40,407 nt of DNA from an uncultured Rhodospirillales bacterium (GTDB lineage: Bacteria; Pseudomonadota; Alphaproteobacteria; Acetobacterales; Acetobacteraceae): positions 1 through 40,407 of the forward strand of contig CAIYMY010000005.1 in NCBI GenBank assembly GCA_903927465.1. The letters are read 5' to 3'. Below are positions 1,884-9,698 of this stretch, piece by piece; positions within the stretch are counted from its first letter, which is position 1; the number at the start of each line of letters is the position of its first letter. Under the pieces are notes generated by a model. That model made no database searches. It saw only the letters and a list, made by a program, of their open reading frames with translations, and was not told where the DNA came from. A program made the translations under genes and the position numbers.

Positions 1884-3122
1884 TCAGCTCCGGTAACTGC
1901 CATTGATGTCAATATAGCCATGCGTCAGATCGCAGGTCCAAACGGTGGATTTGCCCTTGCCAAGGCCGATATCCACGGTGATTTCCACTTCGCGGCCCTT
2001 CATATGCGCCACGACGGGTGCTTCATCATAGCCATCCACCACGCCGCCATCGCGCGCCATCCAGACGCCGCCGACATTGACGGAAAGCTTATCGCGATCC
2101 GCGGGTTCGCCCGCCTTGCCGACGGCCATGACAATGCGGCCCCAATTCGCGTCCTCACCGGCAATTGCGGTTTTCACCAAAGGCGAATTGGCGATGGACA
2201 TGGCAATGCGATGCGCCGAACGCGCCGTAGTGGCGCCGGTCACGTTGATCTGGATCAGCTTCTGCGCGCCTTCACCATCGCGCGCCACCATCAGCGCCAA
2301 TTCCATCAGCACTTCATTCAAGGCGCGCGCGAAATCCTTCAGCACCGCGCCGCCTTCCGCCGGTACGCGGGGATGCTTCGCCGTGCCGGTCGCGAAAACC
2401 ATCACGGTATCAGAAGTGGAGGTATCGGAATCCACCGTCACGCAATTGAAGGAACGATCAACGCCTTTCTTCAGCAGCGCTTGCAAAGCAGCGGCGGGAA
2501 TTTTCGCATCCGTCGCCAGGAAGGACAGCATGGTCGCCATATCTGGCGCAATCATGCCGCTGCCCTTGGCGATGCCGGCGATGGTCACTTCCGCATCCCC
2601 AATGCGCGCCTTGCGAATGGCGCCCTTCGGGAAGGTATCCGTGGTCATGATGGCCTTCGCGGCACCCTGCCAATCACGCTCCGCAGCCGCTTCAAAAATG
2701 CGCGGCAGGGCAGCGATCAGCTTTTCGGTTGGCAGTTTTTCGCCAATGACGCCGGTGGAAGCCAGAAACACTTCCTTGGGCTTGCAGCCCAGGATTGCGG
2801 CGGCGGCCTTGGCGGTTTCCTCACAGGTTTGGCGACCGGCACGGCCGGTGAAGACATTGGAATTGCCCGCTGTCACCACCAGGCCGCGCGCCTTGCCACC
2901 GGGCAGCGCGGCGCGGCACCAATCCACCGGCGCGCCTGGGCAGCGATTGCGGGTGAAAACCCCGGCCACTGTCGTGCCTGTCGGGAAGGCCATCACGGTC
3001 ACGTCATCGCGATCCTTGTAGCGAATCGCCGCGCGGCCTGAGGCAACGCGCACCCCCGGCACCGCCGGCATTTCCGGCAGTGTCAGAGCAAGTGGTGAGG
3101 TGGGGATATCATGTCCGGCCAT
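1884..3122 (-). CDS. argJ: Bifunctional ornithine acetyltransferase / N-acetylglutamate synthase ArgJ
   Basis: ArgJ recycles the acetyl group from N-acetylornithine to glutamate and may also use acetyl-CoA, completing the cyclic arginine pathway in the cytosol. The 412-residue protein shows the autocleavage region GSGMIAPDMATML, in which Thr197 is the expected nucleophile and new N-terminus of the beta chain. It ends with the family-typical YIDINGSYRS. ATG 3122 is preceded by GGAGGA at good spacing; an open extension to 3386 overlaps the parvulin gene and is rejected. It lies 16 bases downstream of that parvulin gene and 17 upstream of the GNAT-Nudix gene. A second arginine gene, argC, lies about 5 kb away in a foreign-looking segment. 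Confidence 0.96.
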   Translation of the reverse strand: MAGHDIPTSPLALTLPEMPAVPGVRVASGRAAIRYKDRDDVTVMAFPTGTTVAGVFTRNRCPGAPVDWCRAALPGGKARGLVVTAGNSNVFTGRAGRQTCEETAKAAAAILGCKPKEVFLASTGVIGEKLPTEKLIAALPRIFEAAAERDWQGAAKAIMTTDTFPKGAIRKARIGDAEVTIAGIAKGSGMIAPDMATMLSFLATDAKIPAAALQALLKKGVDRSFNCVTVDSDTSTSDTVMVFATGTAKHPRVPAEGGAVLKDFARALNEVLMELALMVARDGEGAQKLIQINVTGATTARSAHRIAMSIANSPLVKTAIAGEDANWGRIVMAVGKAGEPADRDKLSVNVGGVWMARDGGVVDGYDEAPVVAHMKGREVEITVDIGLGKGKSTVWTCDLTHGYIDINGSYRS

Positions 3123-3138
3123 GGGATTTCCTCCGAGA

Positions 3139-4074
3139 TTAACGACGATTTGGGGCGGCGGGGCGGCCCGCCGGGGCGGTTGGGGCTGGGGGTTCCGCCG
3201 CATCAATCGCGCGTGGGGTGGAACCATCCAGGTTGAAACGCTCGATCTTCGCAGCGCTGCGGGCGCGCTCAACAACAGTGCTGATTTCAGCCTCGAACAG
3301 GCGTTGGCGCAGCGTCTCACGTGCTTCCTCAAAGGGTGGCGGCGCTGAGGAACGGCGTTCATCCACCCGGATGATGTGCCATCCAAAGGGGCTGCGCACC
3401 GGCGCGGCGCTTATCTGCCCTGCCTGTAGCGCAAAGGCGGCTTCGGCGAATTCCGGCACCATATCCCCGCGCTTGAAGAACCCAAGGTCACCGCCTTCCC
3501 GCGCGCCAGGGCCGGCGGAACGGCGCTGCGCCACGGCGTTGAAATCAGCCCCGGCGCGGATTTCAGCCAAGGCTTCCCGAGCCTCCGTTTCTGTCGGCAC
3601 CAGAATGTGGCGGGCGCGCACTTCTTCTTCCACCGGGCGGGCGCGGATTTCGGCGTCATAGGCCGCGCGGATGCGTTCATCCGTGACGAGTCCAGCCAAT
3701 GCACGGGAAATATAGGCCTGCTGCAATTCCTGTTCTTCTGCGCGACGGACCCGGGCACGGACGGCCTCATCCTTATCCAGCCCCGCGCGGCGGGCAGCGG
3801 CGGCCACGGCGCGGCCCGCGATCATCTGATCCAGCAGCAGGGGATAGAGCATTTGCGGTGGCGCGCCGCGCAATTCTTCAGGCAATTCCTGGGCGGCATT
3901 GGCGAGGTCTGAGAAGCGAATCTCCTCCCCATCCACGCGGGCCACAATGGGGTCAGTCGGCAGGGCGGCTGGGGCGGGCTGGGCCAGGCCGGGCTGGGCA
4001 AAAATGACCCCCAGCAATAGCGCCAAGGTGGCACGAAGGGGGGCGATGGCGGCAGGGCCGCGCGAATGGCGCAT
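3139..4074 (-). CDS. Secreted parvulin-type peptidyl-prolyl isomerase
   Basis: This 311-residue protein is a periplasmic PpiC/SurA-like folding factor. A hydrophobic signal sequence (about residues 11-32, ending near GLAQP) is followed by a helical N-terminal region. The parvulin domain lies at about 153-240, with family landmarks RARHILV, GGDLGFF and SPFGWHIIRVDE. The tail is Pro/Ala rich and ends in a basic APNRR. ATG 4074 is preferred over a TTG at 4089. It is divergent from secA, with about 177 bases between start codons that must hold both promoters. Pairing a secreted chaperone with secA fits a role in handling exported proteins, but that link is inferred from position. Confidence 0.9.
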   Translation of the reverse strand: MRHSRGPAAIAPLRATLALLLGVIFAQPGLAQPAPAALPTDPIVARVDGEEIRFSDLANAAQELPEELRGAPPQMLYPLLLDQMIAGRAVAAAARRAGLDKDEAVRARVRRAEEQELQQAYISRALAGLVTDERIRAAYDAEIRARPVEEEVRARHILVPTETEAREALAEIRAGADFNAVAQRRSAGPGAREGGDLGFFKRGDMVPEFAEAAFALQAGQISAAPVRSPFGWHIIRVDERRSSAPPPFEEARETLRQRLFEAEISTVVERARSAAKIERFNLDGSTPRAIDAAEPPAPTAPAGRPAAPNRR

Positions 4075-4251
4075 AGGGGCTGGTCCCAAATCGGTGATCG
4101 GCCCGGAACATGGCCGAAGCGCCCCTTCCCCACAAGGCGCAAGCGTTGACCCGCCCCCCGGGGGAGCCTATCTCTGCGGCCAATCCGAAACATGCTTTAG
4201 GCGCTCCGGCGCCACGAACGGGCGTGAGCCCGCCGGAGATTGACGCGCCAG

Positions 4252-6981
4252 ATGTTTGCCCGCCTTGCAGCCGCTATTTTCGGCACCTCCAACGACCGCG
4301 CCTTGAAGCGCTATCAATCCCGCGTGCCCGCGATAAATGCGCTGGAACCCCGCCTGCAGGCGCTGTCAGATGAAGCGCTGGCGGGGCAGACCGCGCTTTT
4401 GCGCGAAAGGCTGGCCAAGGGCGAGGCCTTGGATGCGCTGCTGCCGGAAGCCTTCGCGACTGTGCGAGAAGCGTCCCGCCGCGTGCTGGGCTTGCGCCAC
4501 TTCGATGTGCAGATGATCGGCGGCATGGTGCTGCATGAAGGCAAAATCGCCGAGATGAAAACCGGCGAAGGCAAGACGCTGGTTGCGACCCTGCCGGTTT
4601 ACCTGAATGCGCTGCCCGCCAAGGGCGTGCATGTGGTGACGGTGAATGATTATTTGGCCAAGCGCGATGCCGAATGGATGGGGCGCGTCTATGGCTTCCT
4701 GGGCCTGACCGTTGGCGTGATTGTGCATGGGCTGACGGATGACCAGCGCCAGGCGGCTTATGCCTGCGATGTCACCTACGGCACCAATAATGAATACGGC
4801 TTCGATTATCTGCGCGACAATATGAAGTATCGGCTGGAAGATATGGCCCAGCGCGATTTCGCCTATGCCATTGTGGATGAAGTTGACAGCATCCTGGTGG
4901 ATGAAGCGCGCACGCCGCTGATCATCAGCGGGCCGACCGACGACACTTCCGATCTTTACCGCCGCACCGATGAGGTGATGGTAGAACTGGTGAAGGACAA
5001 GGAAACCTTTGAGAAGGACGAAAAGCAGCGCGCCGTGAGCCTGACCGAATTGGGCGGCGAAAGGGTGGAAGAATTTCTCCGCCAATTTGGCCTGCTGATC
5101 GAAGGCAATATGTATGACACTGAAAACGTATCCCTGGTGCATCATGTGAACCAGGCCTTGCGGGCGCATACACTTTTCACGCGCGATGTTGAATACATTG
5201 TCCGGCAGGACAAGATCATCATTATTGATGAATTCACCGGCCGCATGATGGAAGGCCGGCGCTATTCCGATGGTCTGCATCAGGCGCTGGAAGCCAAGGA
5301 ACATGTGACAGTCCAGCCGGAGAATCAAACGCTGGCTTCCATCACCTTCCAGAATTACTTCCGGCTTTATCCGAAGCTTGCCGGCATGACCGGCACGGCG
5401 GCGACGGAAGCTGATGAACTGGCGGAAATCTATAAGCTGGATGTGGTAGAAATCCCGACCAATGTGCCTGTGGCGCGGCTGGATCAGGATGATGAGGTCT
5501 ATCGCAACGCCGAAGAAAAATACGAAGCCGTTGCAAAGCTGATCGAAGAAGCGCGCGGGCGTGGCCAGCCCTGCCTGGTTGGCACCACCAGCATTGAAAA
5601 ATCGGAACTGATTTCAACGCTGCTGAAGAAGAAGAACATTCCGCACCAGGTGCTGAATGCGCGCTACCATGAACAGGAAGCGACCATCATTTCCCAAGCC
5701 GGGCGCGCCGGTGCGGTGACGATTGCGACCAATATGGCAGGCCGCGGCACGGATATTCAATTGGGTGGTAATCTGGAAATGCTGGCGCGGCAGGAAGCCA
5801 ATGCTTCCGAAGGGCCGGAATTTGAAACCGCTTTGGCGCGCCACAAGACCGAAGTTGATGCGGCGCGCCCAATCGTGCATGCCGCCGGCGGGCTTTTCGT
5901 GATTGGCACGGAACGCCATGAAAGCCGGCGCATCGACAATCAGCTTCGCGGTCGTTCAGGCCGGCAGGGGGACCCCGGTGCTTCGCGCTTCTTCCTTTCC
6001 TTGGAAGATGATCTGATGCGCATCTTCGGGTCGGACCGAATGGGCGGGATGTTGCAAAAGCTTGGCCTGAAAGAAGGGGAGGCGATTGTCCACCCCTGGA
6101 TCAACAAGGCCCTGGAACGCGCGCAGAAAAAGGTGGAGGCGCGGAACTTCGACATCCGCAAGAATCTGCTGAAATATGATGACGTGATGAATGATCAGCG
6201 CCGGGAGGTTTATGCCCAGCGCCGCGCTTTCATGATGGCGAATGAGGTGGCCGAAACCATCGCGGAAATGCGCGAAGAAACCATCGCGGATCTTGTCGCG
6301 CGCGCCATTCCGGAAAACGCCTATCCCGAACAATGGGATTTGGAAAAGCTGGATCGTGACGTCAAGGAAATTCTGAACCTTGATCTGCCGGTGGCGGATT
6401 GGGCGCGGGAAGAAGGCATTGATGATGACGCAGTGCGCGAACGCCTGATGCAGGCGGCGGCGCAGGCTTACGCGTCTCGCGCGGCCAATGTGGGGCCGGA
6501 GATCATGCGCCAGATCGAAAAATCCCTGCTGCTGCAGATTTTCGATCAATCCTGGAAGGAACATCTGCTGTCCTTGGATCATTTGCGCCAGGGCATCGGG
6601 CTGCGCGCCTATGGCCAGCGTGACCCGCTGAATGAATACAAAAGCGAAGCCTTCCGCTTGTTCAATTCCATGCTGGAAAACCTGCGCGAACGTGTGACCA
6701 GCCTATTGCTGCGCATTGAAATCCGCCCGGATGCGCCCCCACCCGCGCCGGAAGGCATTGGCGTGTTTGACATGCGCCACCCGGACCCAACTTTGGCGGG
6801 TGCGGAGATGATGGAAGTGGATGGCCCGCCGATGACCGCGCCGATCGGCACGGCTTCAGCGCGTTCCTTGCCCGCGGCGGTGGACCCGAATGACCCAAGC
6901 ACTTGGGCGGGTACACCGCGCAATGCGCCCTGCCCATGTGGTAGTGGCAAGAAGTTCAAGGCGTGTCACGGGCGGGTTTGA
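4252..6981 (+). CDS. secA: Preprotein translocase ATPase SecA
   Basis: SecA drives protein export through SecYEG. The 909-residue product has Walker A GEGKT at about 105-109, the DEAD-type [16 protein letters not shown] segment, the ATPase motif [10 protein letters not shown], the [21 protein letters not shown] region, and the C-terminal zinc-binding tail [16 protein letters not shown] that binds SecB and phospholipid. ATG 4252 gives the normal N-terminus [11 protein letters not shown]; an in-frame TTG at 4240 is too close to the GGAG to be favoured. Length is normal for the family. The last 23 bases of coding sequence plus the first base of the stop codon recur 911 bases downstream (7868-7890), suggesting that the 3' end of secA has served as a recombination site. 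Confidence 0.98.
6957..6979. repeat. Direct repeat copy 1, overlapping the 3' end of secA
   Basis: This 23-base sequence encodes the tail KACHGRV of SecA and reaches into the TGA stop. It is identical to 7868-7890. Copy 1 is followed by GA (stop TGA), copy 2 by AG (stop TAG), so both reconstitute the same SecA ending. Together they bracket about 890 bases containing a glutathione S-transferase gene. The arrangement is what site-specific integration into a gene 3' end would leave. Confidence 0.85.
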
Positions 6982-7818: not shown

Positions 7819-7867
7819 CCGGCTATAAGCCAGACCTCCTGGCAAAGGCCATGCCGGCTAGGAAATA

Positions 7868-7890
7868 CAAGGCGTGTCACGGGCGGGTTT
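7868..7890. repeat. Direct repeat copy 2, displaced secA 3' end
   Basis: Identical over 23 bases to the end of secA at 6957-6979. Similarity continues upstream: reading 7860-7892 gives RKYKACHGRV then TAG, a plausible SecA ending (compare [10 protein letters not shown] in the functional gene). It therefore looks like an orphan SecA tail rather than a chance repeat. Beyond it, codon usage remains atypical until about 9.7 kb. Confidence 0.85.
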
Positions 7891-7932: not shown

Positions 7933-7961
7933 TTGACAGACCTTCAGGCGGACCATTAGCG
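7933..7961 (+). promoter_or_regulatory. Putative promoter of the leader-GNAT-argC unit
   Basis: A perfect TTGACA at 7933-7938 is followed after 17 bases by a weak -10-like TTAGCG at 7956-7961. Transcription would start at about 7968-7970, on or next to the ATG of the Arg-rich leader peptide at 7970. That would make the leader mRNA leaderless, which explains the absence of a ribosome-binding site. The -10 match is poor, so the promoter rests mainly on the -35 and on position. Confidence 0.5.
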
Positions 7962-7969
7962 TCTGTTGC

Positions 7970-8080
7970 ATGAATGAAGACTGCCTCTGCAACGCTAACC
8001 GACGCCGTCGCTGTTTCTCAGCGGCGGCTTCTGTGGCTGCGTGCAGACAAGCCCCTCCCCCGGTGAGGTCCGCCTTGTAG
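7970..8080 (+). CDS. Candidate arginine leader peptide (36 aa)
   Basis: A short open frame from ATG 7970 to TAG 8078 encodes 36 residues, with four consecutive Arg codons (CGA CGC CGT CGC, residues 11-14, bases 8000-8011) and further Arg at residues 26 and 33. It is followed by a strong intrinsic terminator and then by GNAT and argC, an arginine-biosynthesis gene. A run of codons for the end product of the downstream pathway is the hallmark of a ribosome-mediated attenuator. There is no ribosome-binding site, but the predicted transcription start coincides with the ATG, as in leaderless alphaproteobacterial leader peptides such as trpL of Sinorhizobium. The peptide also has five Cys, so a cysteine response cannot be excluded. 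It resembles no known protein domain. Confidence 0.6.
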   Translation: MNEDCLCNANRRRRCFSAAASVAACRQAPPPVRSAL

Positions 8081-8146
8081 CGGTCCATACCCGAGGCGGC
8101 ATCAGCCCGCATCTTTGAACCCCCGCAGCCCCTGGCTTCGGGGGTT
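8004..8146 (+). promoter_or_regulatory. Candidate transcription attenuator RNA structures
   Basis: Three hairpins can be drawn. A: 8004-8013 pairs with 8019-8028 (10 pairs, one G-U, 5-base loop) and overlaps the Arg codons. B: 8070-8077 pairs with 8092-8099, with the leader stop codon in its loop. T: the terminator at 8118-8146. A seven-base perfect pairing of 8035-8041 (GGCTGCG) with 8124-8130 (CGCAGCC) would remove part of the 5' arm of T and could act as antiterminator. A ribosome stalled on the Arg codons would leave 8035-8041 free; one translating onward would cover it. The pairings are directly visible; the regulatory logic is inference. Confidence 0.5.
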
Positions 8147-8149
8147 TTT
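8118..8149 (+). terminator. Intrinsic terminator before GNAT-argC
   Basis: The arms AACCCCCG (8118-8125) and CGGGGGTT (8139-8146) pair perfectly. Inside them AGCC/GGCT (8127-8130 with 8134-8137) adds four pairs around a CCT loop. A run of five T at 8145-8149, then CTTT, follows. It ends about 26 bases before the GTG start of the GNAT gene, so it lies inside the transcription unit rather than after a gene, which is the expected position of an attenuator. Confidence 0.85.
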
Positions 8150-8175
8150 CTTTGCCCAGCTCACAGGAGAACACC

Positions 8176-8724
8176 GTGCGAAACAGCGACTCCGCCCACC
8201 CCGATCCTTTACAAGCATCTGAAGATGCCGGGCACAAAACAGTGCGGCGCGCCACCATCGCTGATGCGGTGACCGTCCGCGAACTGACCCGCGCGGCCTA
8301 CGCGAAGTGGGTGCCCATCCTTGGGCGTGAGCCGCGGCCGATGACCGCCGACTACGACGCGGCACTGCGTGAACACCTTGTAGACCTGCTGCGCGTGGAT
8401 GGCGAAGCCGTGGCGCTGATCGAAATGGCGCCTAAGCCTGACCACCTGCTGATCGTCAATGTCGCGGTGGTACCCGCCCAGCAGGGCAAGGGCCACGGCC
8501 GCGCCCTGATGGCGCATGCGGAGGAGGTCGCCCGATCGCTCAACCTGCGCGAGGTGCGTCTCTACACGAACGCGCTCTTTGCTGAGAATCTGCGACTCTA
8601 CAGCCGGCTTGGCTACCGGGTGGACCGCGAGGAACAGCACCCGCAGTTCGGCGTCGCCGTGCATATGAGCAAGCGCCTCGACGCCATAGCCGACGAGCAC
8701 TCCAACAGCAGGACATCACCATGA
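8176..8724 (+). CDS. GNAT family N-acetyltransferase
   Basis: The 182-residue product is a single GNAT domain: VNVAVVPAQQGKGHGRALM carries the acetyl-CoA pyrophosphate loop (Q-G-K-G-H-G), and the C-terminal NALFAENLRLYSRLGY strand-helix is typical. GTG 8176 has AGGAGA six bases upstream; an in-frame TTG at 8152 lies in the tail of the terminator and is rejected. Its stop overlaps the argC start by ATGA, so the two are translationally coupled. The pairing with argC suggests work on an amino acid or amine near arginine synthesis, possibly N-acetylglutamate formation, but nothing in the sequence fixes the substrate. Confidence 0.85.
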   Translation: MRNSDSAHPDPLQASEDAGHKTVRRATIADAVTVRELTRAAYAKWVPILGREPRPMTADYDAALREHLVDLLRVDGEAVALIEMAPKPDHLLIVNVAVVPAQQGKGHGRALMAHAEEVARSLNLREVRLYTNALFAENLRLYSRLGYRVDREEQHPQFGVAVHMSKRLDAIADEHSNSRTSP

Positions 8725-9698
8725 GCATTCGCATTGGCATTGTCGGGATCAGCGGTTTTGGCGGTGGCGAGGCGATGCGCCTGGTAGCAAACCACCCGGC
8801 TTTCGAACTGGTCTACGCCGCAGGTGAAGGCAGCGCCGGTAGCCGCTTGGGGGACCGCTTCCCCGGCGCGCCAGCCAAGCTGGCCGAGTTGATGATCGAG
8901 AAGTGGGACCCGGCGATGCTCCCGAAGCTCGATGTGCTGTTTGCCTCGCTGCCCACGGGCAGTTCGGCCGAGTCGTTGGCGCGTGTCCCAAAGGGCGTGA
9001 AGATCGTCGATATCGGCGGCGACCACCGCTATGTAGAAGGTTGGGCTTATGGTTTGGCCGACATCTGGCCAGCGCAAATCGAGGGTCAGACTCGCATTGC
9101 CAATCCCGGCTGCTTTCCTGCGGCGACGCTTACCGCGCTGGCGCCACTGCTGGCCAACAAGCTGATCGAACCCGGCAACATCGTGATTGACGCCAAGACC
9201 GGCATCTCCGGTGCTGGTCGGGGCGGCGCCGACAGCAGATTCGGCTATGCCGAGAGCAATGAGAACCTGGTGCCCTATGGTCTGCTGAAGCACACCCACA
9301 TGCCCGAGATGGCTAGAACGATTGAGCAGCTAAGCGGCAGCAGCGCGGCCGGGCTGGTGTTTACGCCGCACCTGGTGCCGATGACCCGTGGCATACTCGC
9401 GACCATCTACTGCCGAGGCCGCGCTACCACGGACCAGTGCTTGGACGCGGCGCGGCGCTTCTATGCTGGGCGGGCCTTTGTTCGCGTGACCGACAAGCCA
9501 CCGCAGACCAAATGGGCTACCGGTTCGAACCTTGCGTTCATCAGCTACGCGGCGGACCCAGAGCGCAACTTGGTGATCGCAATGGGCGTGGTTGATAACC
9601 TCGGCAAGGGGGCGGCCGGCCAAGCGGTGCAGAATGCGAACCTGATCTGTGGCCTGCCGGAAACTGCAGGGCTGGATGGCGTGCCTGTTTGGCCATGA
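8721..9698 (+). CDS. argC: N-acetyl-gamma-glutamyl-phosphate reductase (ArgC)
   Basis: ArgC reduces N-acetylglutamyl 5-phosphate to the semialdehyde with NADPH, the third step of arginine synthesis. The 325-residue protein has the nucleotide-binding GIVGISGFGGGE at 6-17, the catalytic cysteine in NPGCFPAATL, the HTHMPEM histidine region and the FTPHLVPMTRG signature. It is slightly short for the family. A LysY-like paralogue cannot be excluded. It lies four bases inside the GNAT gene and behind the Arg-codon leader. Asp codons are 10 GAC to 4 GAT and Glu codons 10 GAG to 5 GAA, the reverse of the native-looking yicC (10 GAT to 5 GAC, 23 GAA to 6 GAG), supporting horizontal acquisition. No argB or argD is adjacent. 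Confidence 0.9.
   Translation: MSIRIGIVGISGFGGGEAMRLVANHPAFELVYAAGEGSAGSRLGDRFPGAPAKLAELMIEKWDPAMLPKLDVLFASLPTGSSAESLARVPKGVKIVDIGGDHRYVEGWAYGLADIWPAQIEGQTRIANPGCFPAATLTALAPLLANKLIEPGNIVIDAKTGISGAGRGGADSRFGYAESNENLVPYGLLKHTHMPEMARTIEQLSGSSAAGLVFTPHLVPMTRGILATIYCRGRATTDQCLDAARRFYAGRAFVRVTDKPPQTKWATGSNLAFISYAADPERNLVIAMGVVDNLGKGAAGQAVQNANLICGLPETAGLDGVPVWP

Follow-up and report, generated by a model that had tools for sequence, protein, structure and literature searches.

A Conserved Leader With a Run of Arginine Codons Upstream of argC Is Very Probably a Ribosome-Mediated Transcription Attenuator

Introduction

The leader of the Escherichia coli trp operon, trpL, follows a 1:2, 2:3, 3:4 pairing logic. 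The leader upstream of argC that we describe here shares this logic in silico: in both cases the 5′ arm of the terminator is sequestered in a cut RNA when the ribosome is placed on the regulatory codons, and the full-length equilibrium structure is the terminator. E. coli trpL differs in having Trp codons, a ribosome-binding site before the leader and a much shorter span. There is also a marked likeness to the Sinorhizobium meliloti trpL-trpE(G) leader, likewise alphaproteobacterial, for which the accessible text of the reports describes an RNA that begins with the leader AUG, a stretch of codons specifying the amino acid whose synthesis is encoded downstream and a stalled ribosome that favors the antiterminator (PMC7298713, PMC10117765). 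As described there, the S. meliloti leader responds to Trp and encodes 14 amino acids, whereas the argC leader has Arg codons in a frame of 31–41 codons, with region 2 inside the frame.

In fungi, the arginine attenuator peptide is an upstream peptide tied to arginine biosynthesis; it is an arrest peptide of eukaryotes, with translation as its target when arginine is abundant. In Salmonella, the accessible part of the speF study reports that arginine is sensed through consecutive Arg codons of orf34, a short frame upstream of the gene (PMC6386406). The same text describes two Arg codons, Rho-dependent termination, masking of the ribosome-binding site and decay by RNase G, with ornithine decarboxylase as the controlled product (PMC6386406). 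A leader of this type was not matched by our locus, which has an intrinsic terminator and argC downstream. The Staphylococcus aureus leader peptide rbfL is also reported, in the portion of the paper available, to sense arginine limitation via Arg codons, but these are the rare AGA/AGG, and the stalled ribosome blocks the ribosome-binding site of a biofilm regulator, whose translation is thereby reduced; this is not transcription attenuation (PMC13009471). An earlier note on this DNA, made from its letters alone, had stated that it knew of no established bacterial arginine equivalent of the amino acid attenuators. This needs qualification, given that speF orf34 and rbfL are Arg-sensing leaders, and it holds in the sense that neither controls arginine biosynthesis or is described, in the accessible texts, as an intrinsic-terminator attenuator. 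To our knowledge, there is no leader-peptide attenuator for arginine biosynthesis. A literature search that covered few subscription papers returned no arginine attenuator upstream of a gene for arginine synthesis, and no such case is named in the available text of an Actinobacteria survey, an alphaproteobacterial motif paper, a survey of premature terminators and a study of the S. meliloti small proteome (PMC10117765). According to the accessible text of a regulon study, gammaproteobacteria show high conservation of the arginine repressor ArgR, and the other classes lack it (PMC5343134).

Results

An Arg-rich leader frame and a terminator precede GNAT and argC

The locus lies on the plus strand of the window, that is, the whole stretch of 40,407 nt that was analyzed. 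A putative promoter at 7933–7961, recognized by the spacing of TTGAC across leaders and composed of a −35 element TTGACA (7933–7938) and a weak −10 element TTAGCG (7956–7961), is followed by an open reading frame of 36 codons (7970–8080; ATG at 7970, stop codon TAG at 8078–8080) that would encode the peptide MNEDCLCNANRRRRCFSAAASVAACRQAPPPVRSAL. Codons 11–14 (8000–8011) read CGA CGC CGT CGC, and we consider them the regulatory codons on the basis of the conserved Arg run and its codon bias. Folding predicts a hairpin of 10 pairs (8004–8013/8019–8028), designated 1:2, whose 5′ arm is inside the Arg codons. Farther downstream, folding, a terminator scan and conservation all indicate an intrinsic terminator at 8117–8149, designated 3:4, with the stem 8117–8125/8139–8147, an inner stem 8127–8130/8134–8137 and a T-run at 8145–8149, where it runs into TTTTTCTTT. 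The first gene behind it encodes a GNAT-family acetyltransferase (8176–8724; Pfam PF00583, 51.1 bits vs. a cut-off of 20.7) and is followed by argC, encoding N-acetyl-gamma-glutamyl-phosphate reductase (8721–9698; TIGR01850, 287.9 bits vs. a cut-off of 233.6). The TTGACA, the 36-codon frame, the four Arg codons, the 10-pair hairpin, an exact seven-base complement (GGCTGCG at 8035–8041, CGCAGCC at 8124–8130) and the two downstream genes had all been pointed out in the earlier note, and each was found at the same position; the terminator with its U-run, then assigned to 8118–8149, is also present, with its stem now corrected as above.

The GNAT protein does not qualify as a clear N-acetylglutamate synthase: all of its NCBIfam scores were far below cut-off and its PDB matches were remote acetyltransferases. 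The window also contains argJ on the minus strand (1884–3386; TIGR00120, 380.6 bits, over cut-off). Upstream of the leader promoter we noticed, by eye, a second piece resembling the C-terminal SEC-C end of secA (4240–6981), perhaps a duplication remnant; positions 7862–7890 and 6951–6979 share 93% identity over 29 nt.

Searches against known leader families gave no assignment. No Rfam family matched in the window at threshold, and His_leader (RF00514) was rejected at 20.1 bits against a gathering score of 49. Two leader peptides had no match among the NCBIfam leader-peptide families at E values up to 1, although short peptides are hard for such models.

The arrangement is not expected by chance

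In the 40-kb window, seven ATG frames of 10–60 codons encode RRRR within their first 20 positions, and only the leader frame has a terminator behind it. Dinucleotide shuffles of the window (n = 50) gave a mean of 4.08 such RRRR frames and 0.02 with a terminator. The fold of the leader RNA was better than that of each of 200 shuffles (z = −5.24). The terminator scan gave one match, which alone is not rare (0.5 expected), and a promoter scan of the window found no sigma-70-like site at the leader, the −10 element TTAGCG being poor. A chance origin was rejected on the folding z-score and the shuffled-window counts, and is untenable because the leader is conserved in other genomes.

The leader is found at argC loci across many genomes

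Using the ArgC of the window as a query against named genomes, we found 215 relatives and kept 80 loci, 56 of which have the leader (55 recognized by motif and one, L027, by covariance model). Many Alphaproteobacteria are among the carriers, which include Roseomonas and kin, Reyranella, Bosea, Methylobacterium and others. Two large plasmids, from Methylobacterium aquaticum and Agrobacterium leguminum, bear the leader as well. The 24 loci without a leader include those of Bradyrhizobium, Cupriavidus gilardii, Polaromonas and Ramlibacter, as well as one (L056) that begins inside argC and cannot be judged. Within the genus of the window, 20 of 35 genomes had a leader match. A class-wide model search detected the leader in at least 5 of 385 genomes, two of the five weakly (26.4 and 25.7 bits); this search misses many leaders because only six candidates per genome were scored.

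Leaders fall into two types, A, which includes that of the window, and B (e.g., MLRNQNLCDRRRRRCTQAAALRAARRSASVRVVTASP). In 50 of the 55 loci recognized by motif the Arg run is 175–196 nt before argC, and in the other five the distance is 715–1436 nt. One unit (L041:1535–3000) has an extra gene, its order being leader, GNAT, a frame that by eye resembles an SGNH-type hydrolase, and argC. Other copies of the leader RNA were sought in the genome of the window, with matches of E 0.34 and worse only. For argG, argJ, the rpsI-linked argC and 39 other argC loci, a frame of 8–60 codons with an Arg cluster occurred within 900 nt in 12 of 42 cases, and none of these had a terminator.

The reading frame is conserved as far as the Arg run, the RNA beyond it

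Leaders were compared in an alignment, A1, of 61 sequences whose rows were cut to start at the ATG, so that the invariance of the ATG there is by construction. Left out were L015, which has no in-frame ATG, L087 and L092, which are identical to others, and L001, L002 and L084, which are the window itself; L027 was found after A1 was made and shares its leader peptide with L085. Throughout A1 we find an Arg run of two to five codons together with region 2 and the terminator. The distance from ATG to the run is 27 nt in 38 leaders and 30 nt in 23, and an in-frame ATG at one of these two distances is found in 54 of the 55 motif-bearing named loci, L015 being the exception. Within codons 7–20, the longest Arg run is of four or five codons in 57 leaders, three in three and two in one, and in the other two frames it reaches at most three and one. 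All length changes between the ATG and the run are of whole codons. Behind the run and before GCTGCG, the frame is shifted in 11 of the 61 leaders, with the RNA staying alike; in each of the 61, the stop codon comes after GCTGCG. Because changes before the run are of whole codons and frame shifts occur behind it, the frame seems to matter through the Arg run, and the RNA after it.

The conserved Arg-run frame and terminator that had been expected from aligning the 5′ regions of argC were thus borne out; covarying stems, expected as well, add little (see below). A terminator kept without an Arg-rich frame, named beforehand as an observation that would speak against an attenuator, was encountered in a weak form, in L176, which keeps the terminator with just two Arg codons. 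A second weak form is L015, which keeps the leader RNA without an in-frame ATG.

The 267 codons of the runs comprise 97 CGA, 134 CGC and 36 CGT, with no CGG, AGA or AGG, and CGA is the first codon in 60 of 61 runs. By comparison, the 1280 Arg codons of sampled argC genes are 25% CGG, 7% AGA/AGG and 2% CGA (21 codons). CGA, CGC and CGT are all read by one tRNA, with the anticodon ICG. This bias is suggestive only, because pairing also binds the bases of the run.

TTGAC precedes the ATG by 37 nt in 51 leaders, 36 nt in five and 38 nt in four, and is absent in one; C is found at −1 of the ATG in 53 of 61. From this promoter spacing we infer that transcription begins close to the A of the ATG (~7970). 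As TTGAC lies 36–38 nt before the ATG in 60 of 61 cases, the leader is probably leaderless.

A ribosome on the Arg codons is predicted to switch the RNA

For folding, RNAs were truncated immediately after region 3, and their 5′ part was treated as covered to 15 nt from the first A-site base. This footprint is an assumption; making it 3 nt larger or smaller displaces the register by a single codon. When the A site is placed on Arg codon 2 of the window leader, region 2 (8021–8041), which is conserved, is predicted to form the 5′ side of an antiterminator with region 3 (8108–8126) through the pairs 8021–8024/8123–8126, 8026–8027/8121–8122, 8029–8031/8117–8119, 8035–8036/8112–8113 and 8038–8041/8108–8111. 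These pairs consume the 5′ arm of the terminator, as 8117–8125 serves in both structures. Without a ribosome, the probability of 2:3 exceeded 0.5 in none of the 61 leaders. It did so in 52, 58, 55 and 34 of 61 with the A site on run codons 1, 2, 3 and 4, in 32 and 8 at one and two codons before the run, in one at a fifth run codon, and in none elsewhere.

The antiterminator had previously been placed at the seven-base pairing 8035–8041/8124–8130. This pairing is invariant in the 61 leaders, but the pairing does not form with a ribosome on the Arg codons (mean probabilities 0.05–0.11); it is favored with the ribosome near codon 4 (mean 0.77), and RNAalifold also chose it. As an antiterminator for stalling on Arg codons it was rejected from the folds by ribosome position, in favor of 8021–8041 with 8108–8126.

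In a control in which the stretch from the Arg run to the terminator was shuffled, a low 2:3 probability in the free RNA together with a high one at Arg codon 2 was seen in 14 of 305 sequences, vs. 45 of 61 real leaders; under a stricter three-state test, which also asked for release eight codons on, the counts were 6 of 305 and 23 of 61. Among leaders outside the alignment, 11 of 12 switch at the first Arg codon. The twelfth, L135, switches at −1 to +2 when read from the correct ATG. In L175 and L176, a ribosome positioned before the run brings about the switch as well.

At full-length equilibrium the terminator wins in all 61 leaders and, with the ribosome at Arg codon 2, is favored over 2:3 by a mean of 10.4 kcal/mol (4.2–17.5). 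Such folds cannot show a switch, and the model would need 2:3 to form before region 4 is made. Given the same treatment, E. coli trpL reached an antiterminator probability of 0.83 in the cut RNA when the ribosome sat on the Trp codons, and 0.00 in the full-length RNA. Toward the 5′ side, the trpL switch window is the wider one, with 0.78–0.83 on the four or five codons before, from codon index 5. A modeling paper, however, describes, in its available part, the two trp conformations as having similar stabilities (PMC1183508).

Covariation is weak support for the switch. In the pair counts, helices 53–63/164–177 and 67–76/151–160 are paired in 94–96% of cells without a double change, and double changes are located in distal helices; with the structure of L007, two pairs of helix 63–68/161–170 show four double-change cells. 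Double-change cells exceeded shuffles (54 vs. 29.6; 39 vs. 28.5 with the L007 structure), but the pairs having double changes did not (8 vs. 8.8; 12 vs. 12.2).

The leader-linked argC is a second copy

The genome of the window has another argC-like gene on contig C39 (G000:C39:6537–7394; L115), which at 159.5 bits is below the TIGR01850 cut-off. The two frames before it, judged by eye, are presumably rplM and rpsI, and no Arg-run leader with a terminator was found within 900 nt of it. In 30 genomes tested, argC over cut-off was present in 21 of 22 with the leader and in none of eight genus-mates without it, these being 8 of the 15 genomes of the genus that lack a leader match. The remaining carrier, G032, has the leader, and no argC over cut-off was found in it. 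The leader-linked argC is a second copy with a patchy distribution.

A tree built from 84 ArgC proteins requires 15 changes to account for the leader states (A, B or no leader), where the fewest possible is 2 and the shuffled mean 36.1. The tree mixes orders, with 37 of its 81 inner branches open, and would fit transfer plus loss. A search for ArgR gave no match in the genome of the window, and 9 of 14 control genomes gave matches.

Discussion

We consider it highly likely that this leader is a ribosome-mediated transcription attenuator of the trp/his type with arginine as the regulatory codons. As in that type, an Arg run stands in a frame before argC, a terminator lies between frame and gene, and an exclusive antiterminator is favored, in silico, on the regulatory codons; two further signs, read from the sequence of the 61 leaders, are a frame kept only up to the Arg run and a promoter at a fixed distance from the ATG. 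According to the model, the RNA would begin at or beside the ATG. With ample charged Arg-tRNA, or without a ribosome, region 2 would be held by hairpin 1:2 or covered by a moving ribosome; the terminator 3:4 would then form and the polymerase would stop before argC, or before GNAT and argC. When Arg-tRNA is short, a ribosome would halt on the Arg run and cover region 1, and the freed region 2 (GCGG.GG, UUC, UGCG) could pair with region 3 (CGCA, GAA, CC.CCGC). The 2:3 structure would occupy the terminator 5′ arm until the polymerase has passed, so that argC would be transcribed. The earlier reading of the locus as an arginine attenuator with a leaderless leader and control of argC agrees with both the comparative and the folding tests, the arginine response itself being a prediction. 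The direct basis is the sequence, its conservation, the frame kept to the Arg run, the codon bias and the computed RNA switching, and from these we infer where transcription starts, that the leader is translated, that arginine is the signal and that argC is controlled. A conserved arginine attenuator is thus very probably real, with a known mechanism and what appears to be a new amino acid.

Other explanations would assign a different role to the same elements. Both the fungal arginine attenuator peptide and SpeFL act as arrest peptides that sense arginine or a related metabolite, and the nascent argC leader peptide might likewise sense free arginine or a related metabolite in the ribosome, rather than tRNA charging. 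The basic run does sit in a short conserved leader, and the consecutive Arg codons of speF orf34 are in a conserved domain, as far as the accessible text tells (PMC6386406). However, the residues before the run differ wholly between types A and B, those behind it change with the frame in 11 of 61 leaders, and mainly the Arg run is common, so that we regard an arrest peptide as very improbable. CGA is a slowly read codon, and its place at the head of 60 of 61 runs, together with its excess in them (97 of 267 codons, vs. 21 of 1280 in sampled argC genes), would suit a leader that monitors slow translation in general, through CGA codons and a polybasic peptide. The run is nevertheless one of four or five Arg codons in 57 of 61 leaders, and the downstream gene makes arginine, as in classical attenuators; a general sensor of slow translation is in our opinion very improbable.

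Hardly credible is a third account, in which the terminator merely insulates argC from upstream transcription and GC-rich pairing has produced the Arg frame incidentally. CGN codons do form easily in GC-rich stems, as the 4.08 RRRR frames per shuffled window illustrate, but an insulator would explain neither a promoter at a fixed distance from the ATG, nor length changes by whole codons before the run only, nor a switch that is position-specific.

An arginine attenuator of this kind would be a directly testable answer to how bacteria without ArgR tune arginine synthesis. It would also represent a naturally occurring sensor of how far Arg-tRNA is charged, and an instance of a regulatory RNA traveling together with its gene. 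On balance we favor, with some reserve, a broader proposal: that the classical attenuators here gain their first member for arginine, in the form of a leaderless sensor of a single Arg-tRNA that is tied to a second argC. Under this proposal, leader and gene would have moved jointly from one alphaproteobacterial order to another and onto large plasmids, providing an arginine-inducible step of arginine synthesis for bacteria without ArgR, and the terminated leader may act in trans as a small RNA or peptide, like rnTrpL/peTrpL.

Betaproteobacterial relatives of ArgC point to wide transfer. Five betaproteobacterial loci (L017, L019, L021, L039, and L048) encode ArgC of the same type with 89–91% protein identity, and no leader was found at them. 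A Paraburkholderia plasmid (H6) carries the same ArgC type at 81% DNA identity. We also observed a decayed copy (L122, G392:C1:2590577–2590696), in which a leader fragment is fused to a 3′ fragment of argC in a genome that also has an intact leader-argC locus. In Rhizobiales bacterium 2SD, two leader-argC loci (L033 and L042) occur on different contigs of one genome.
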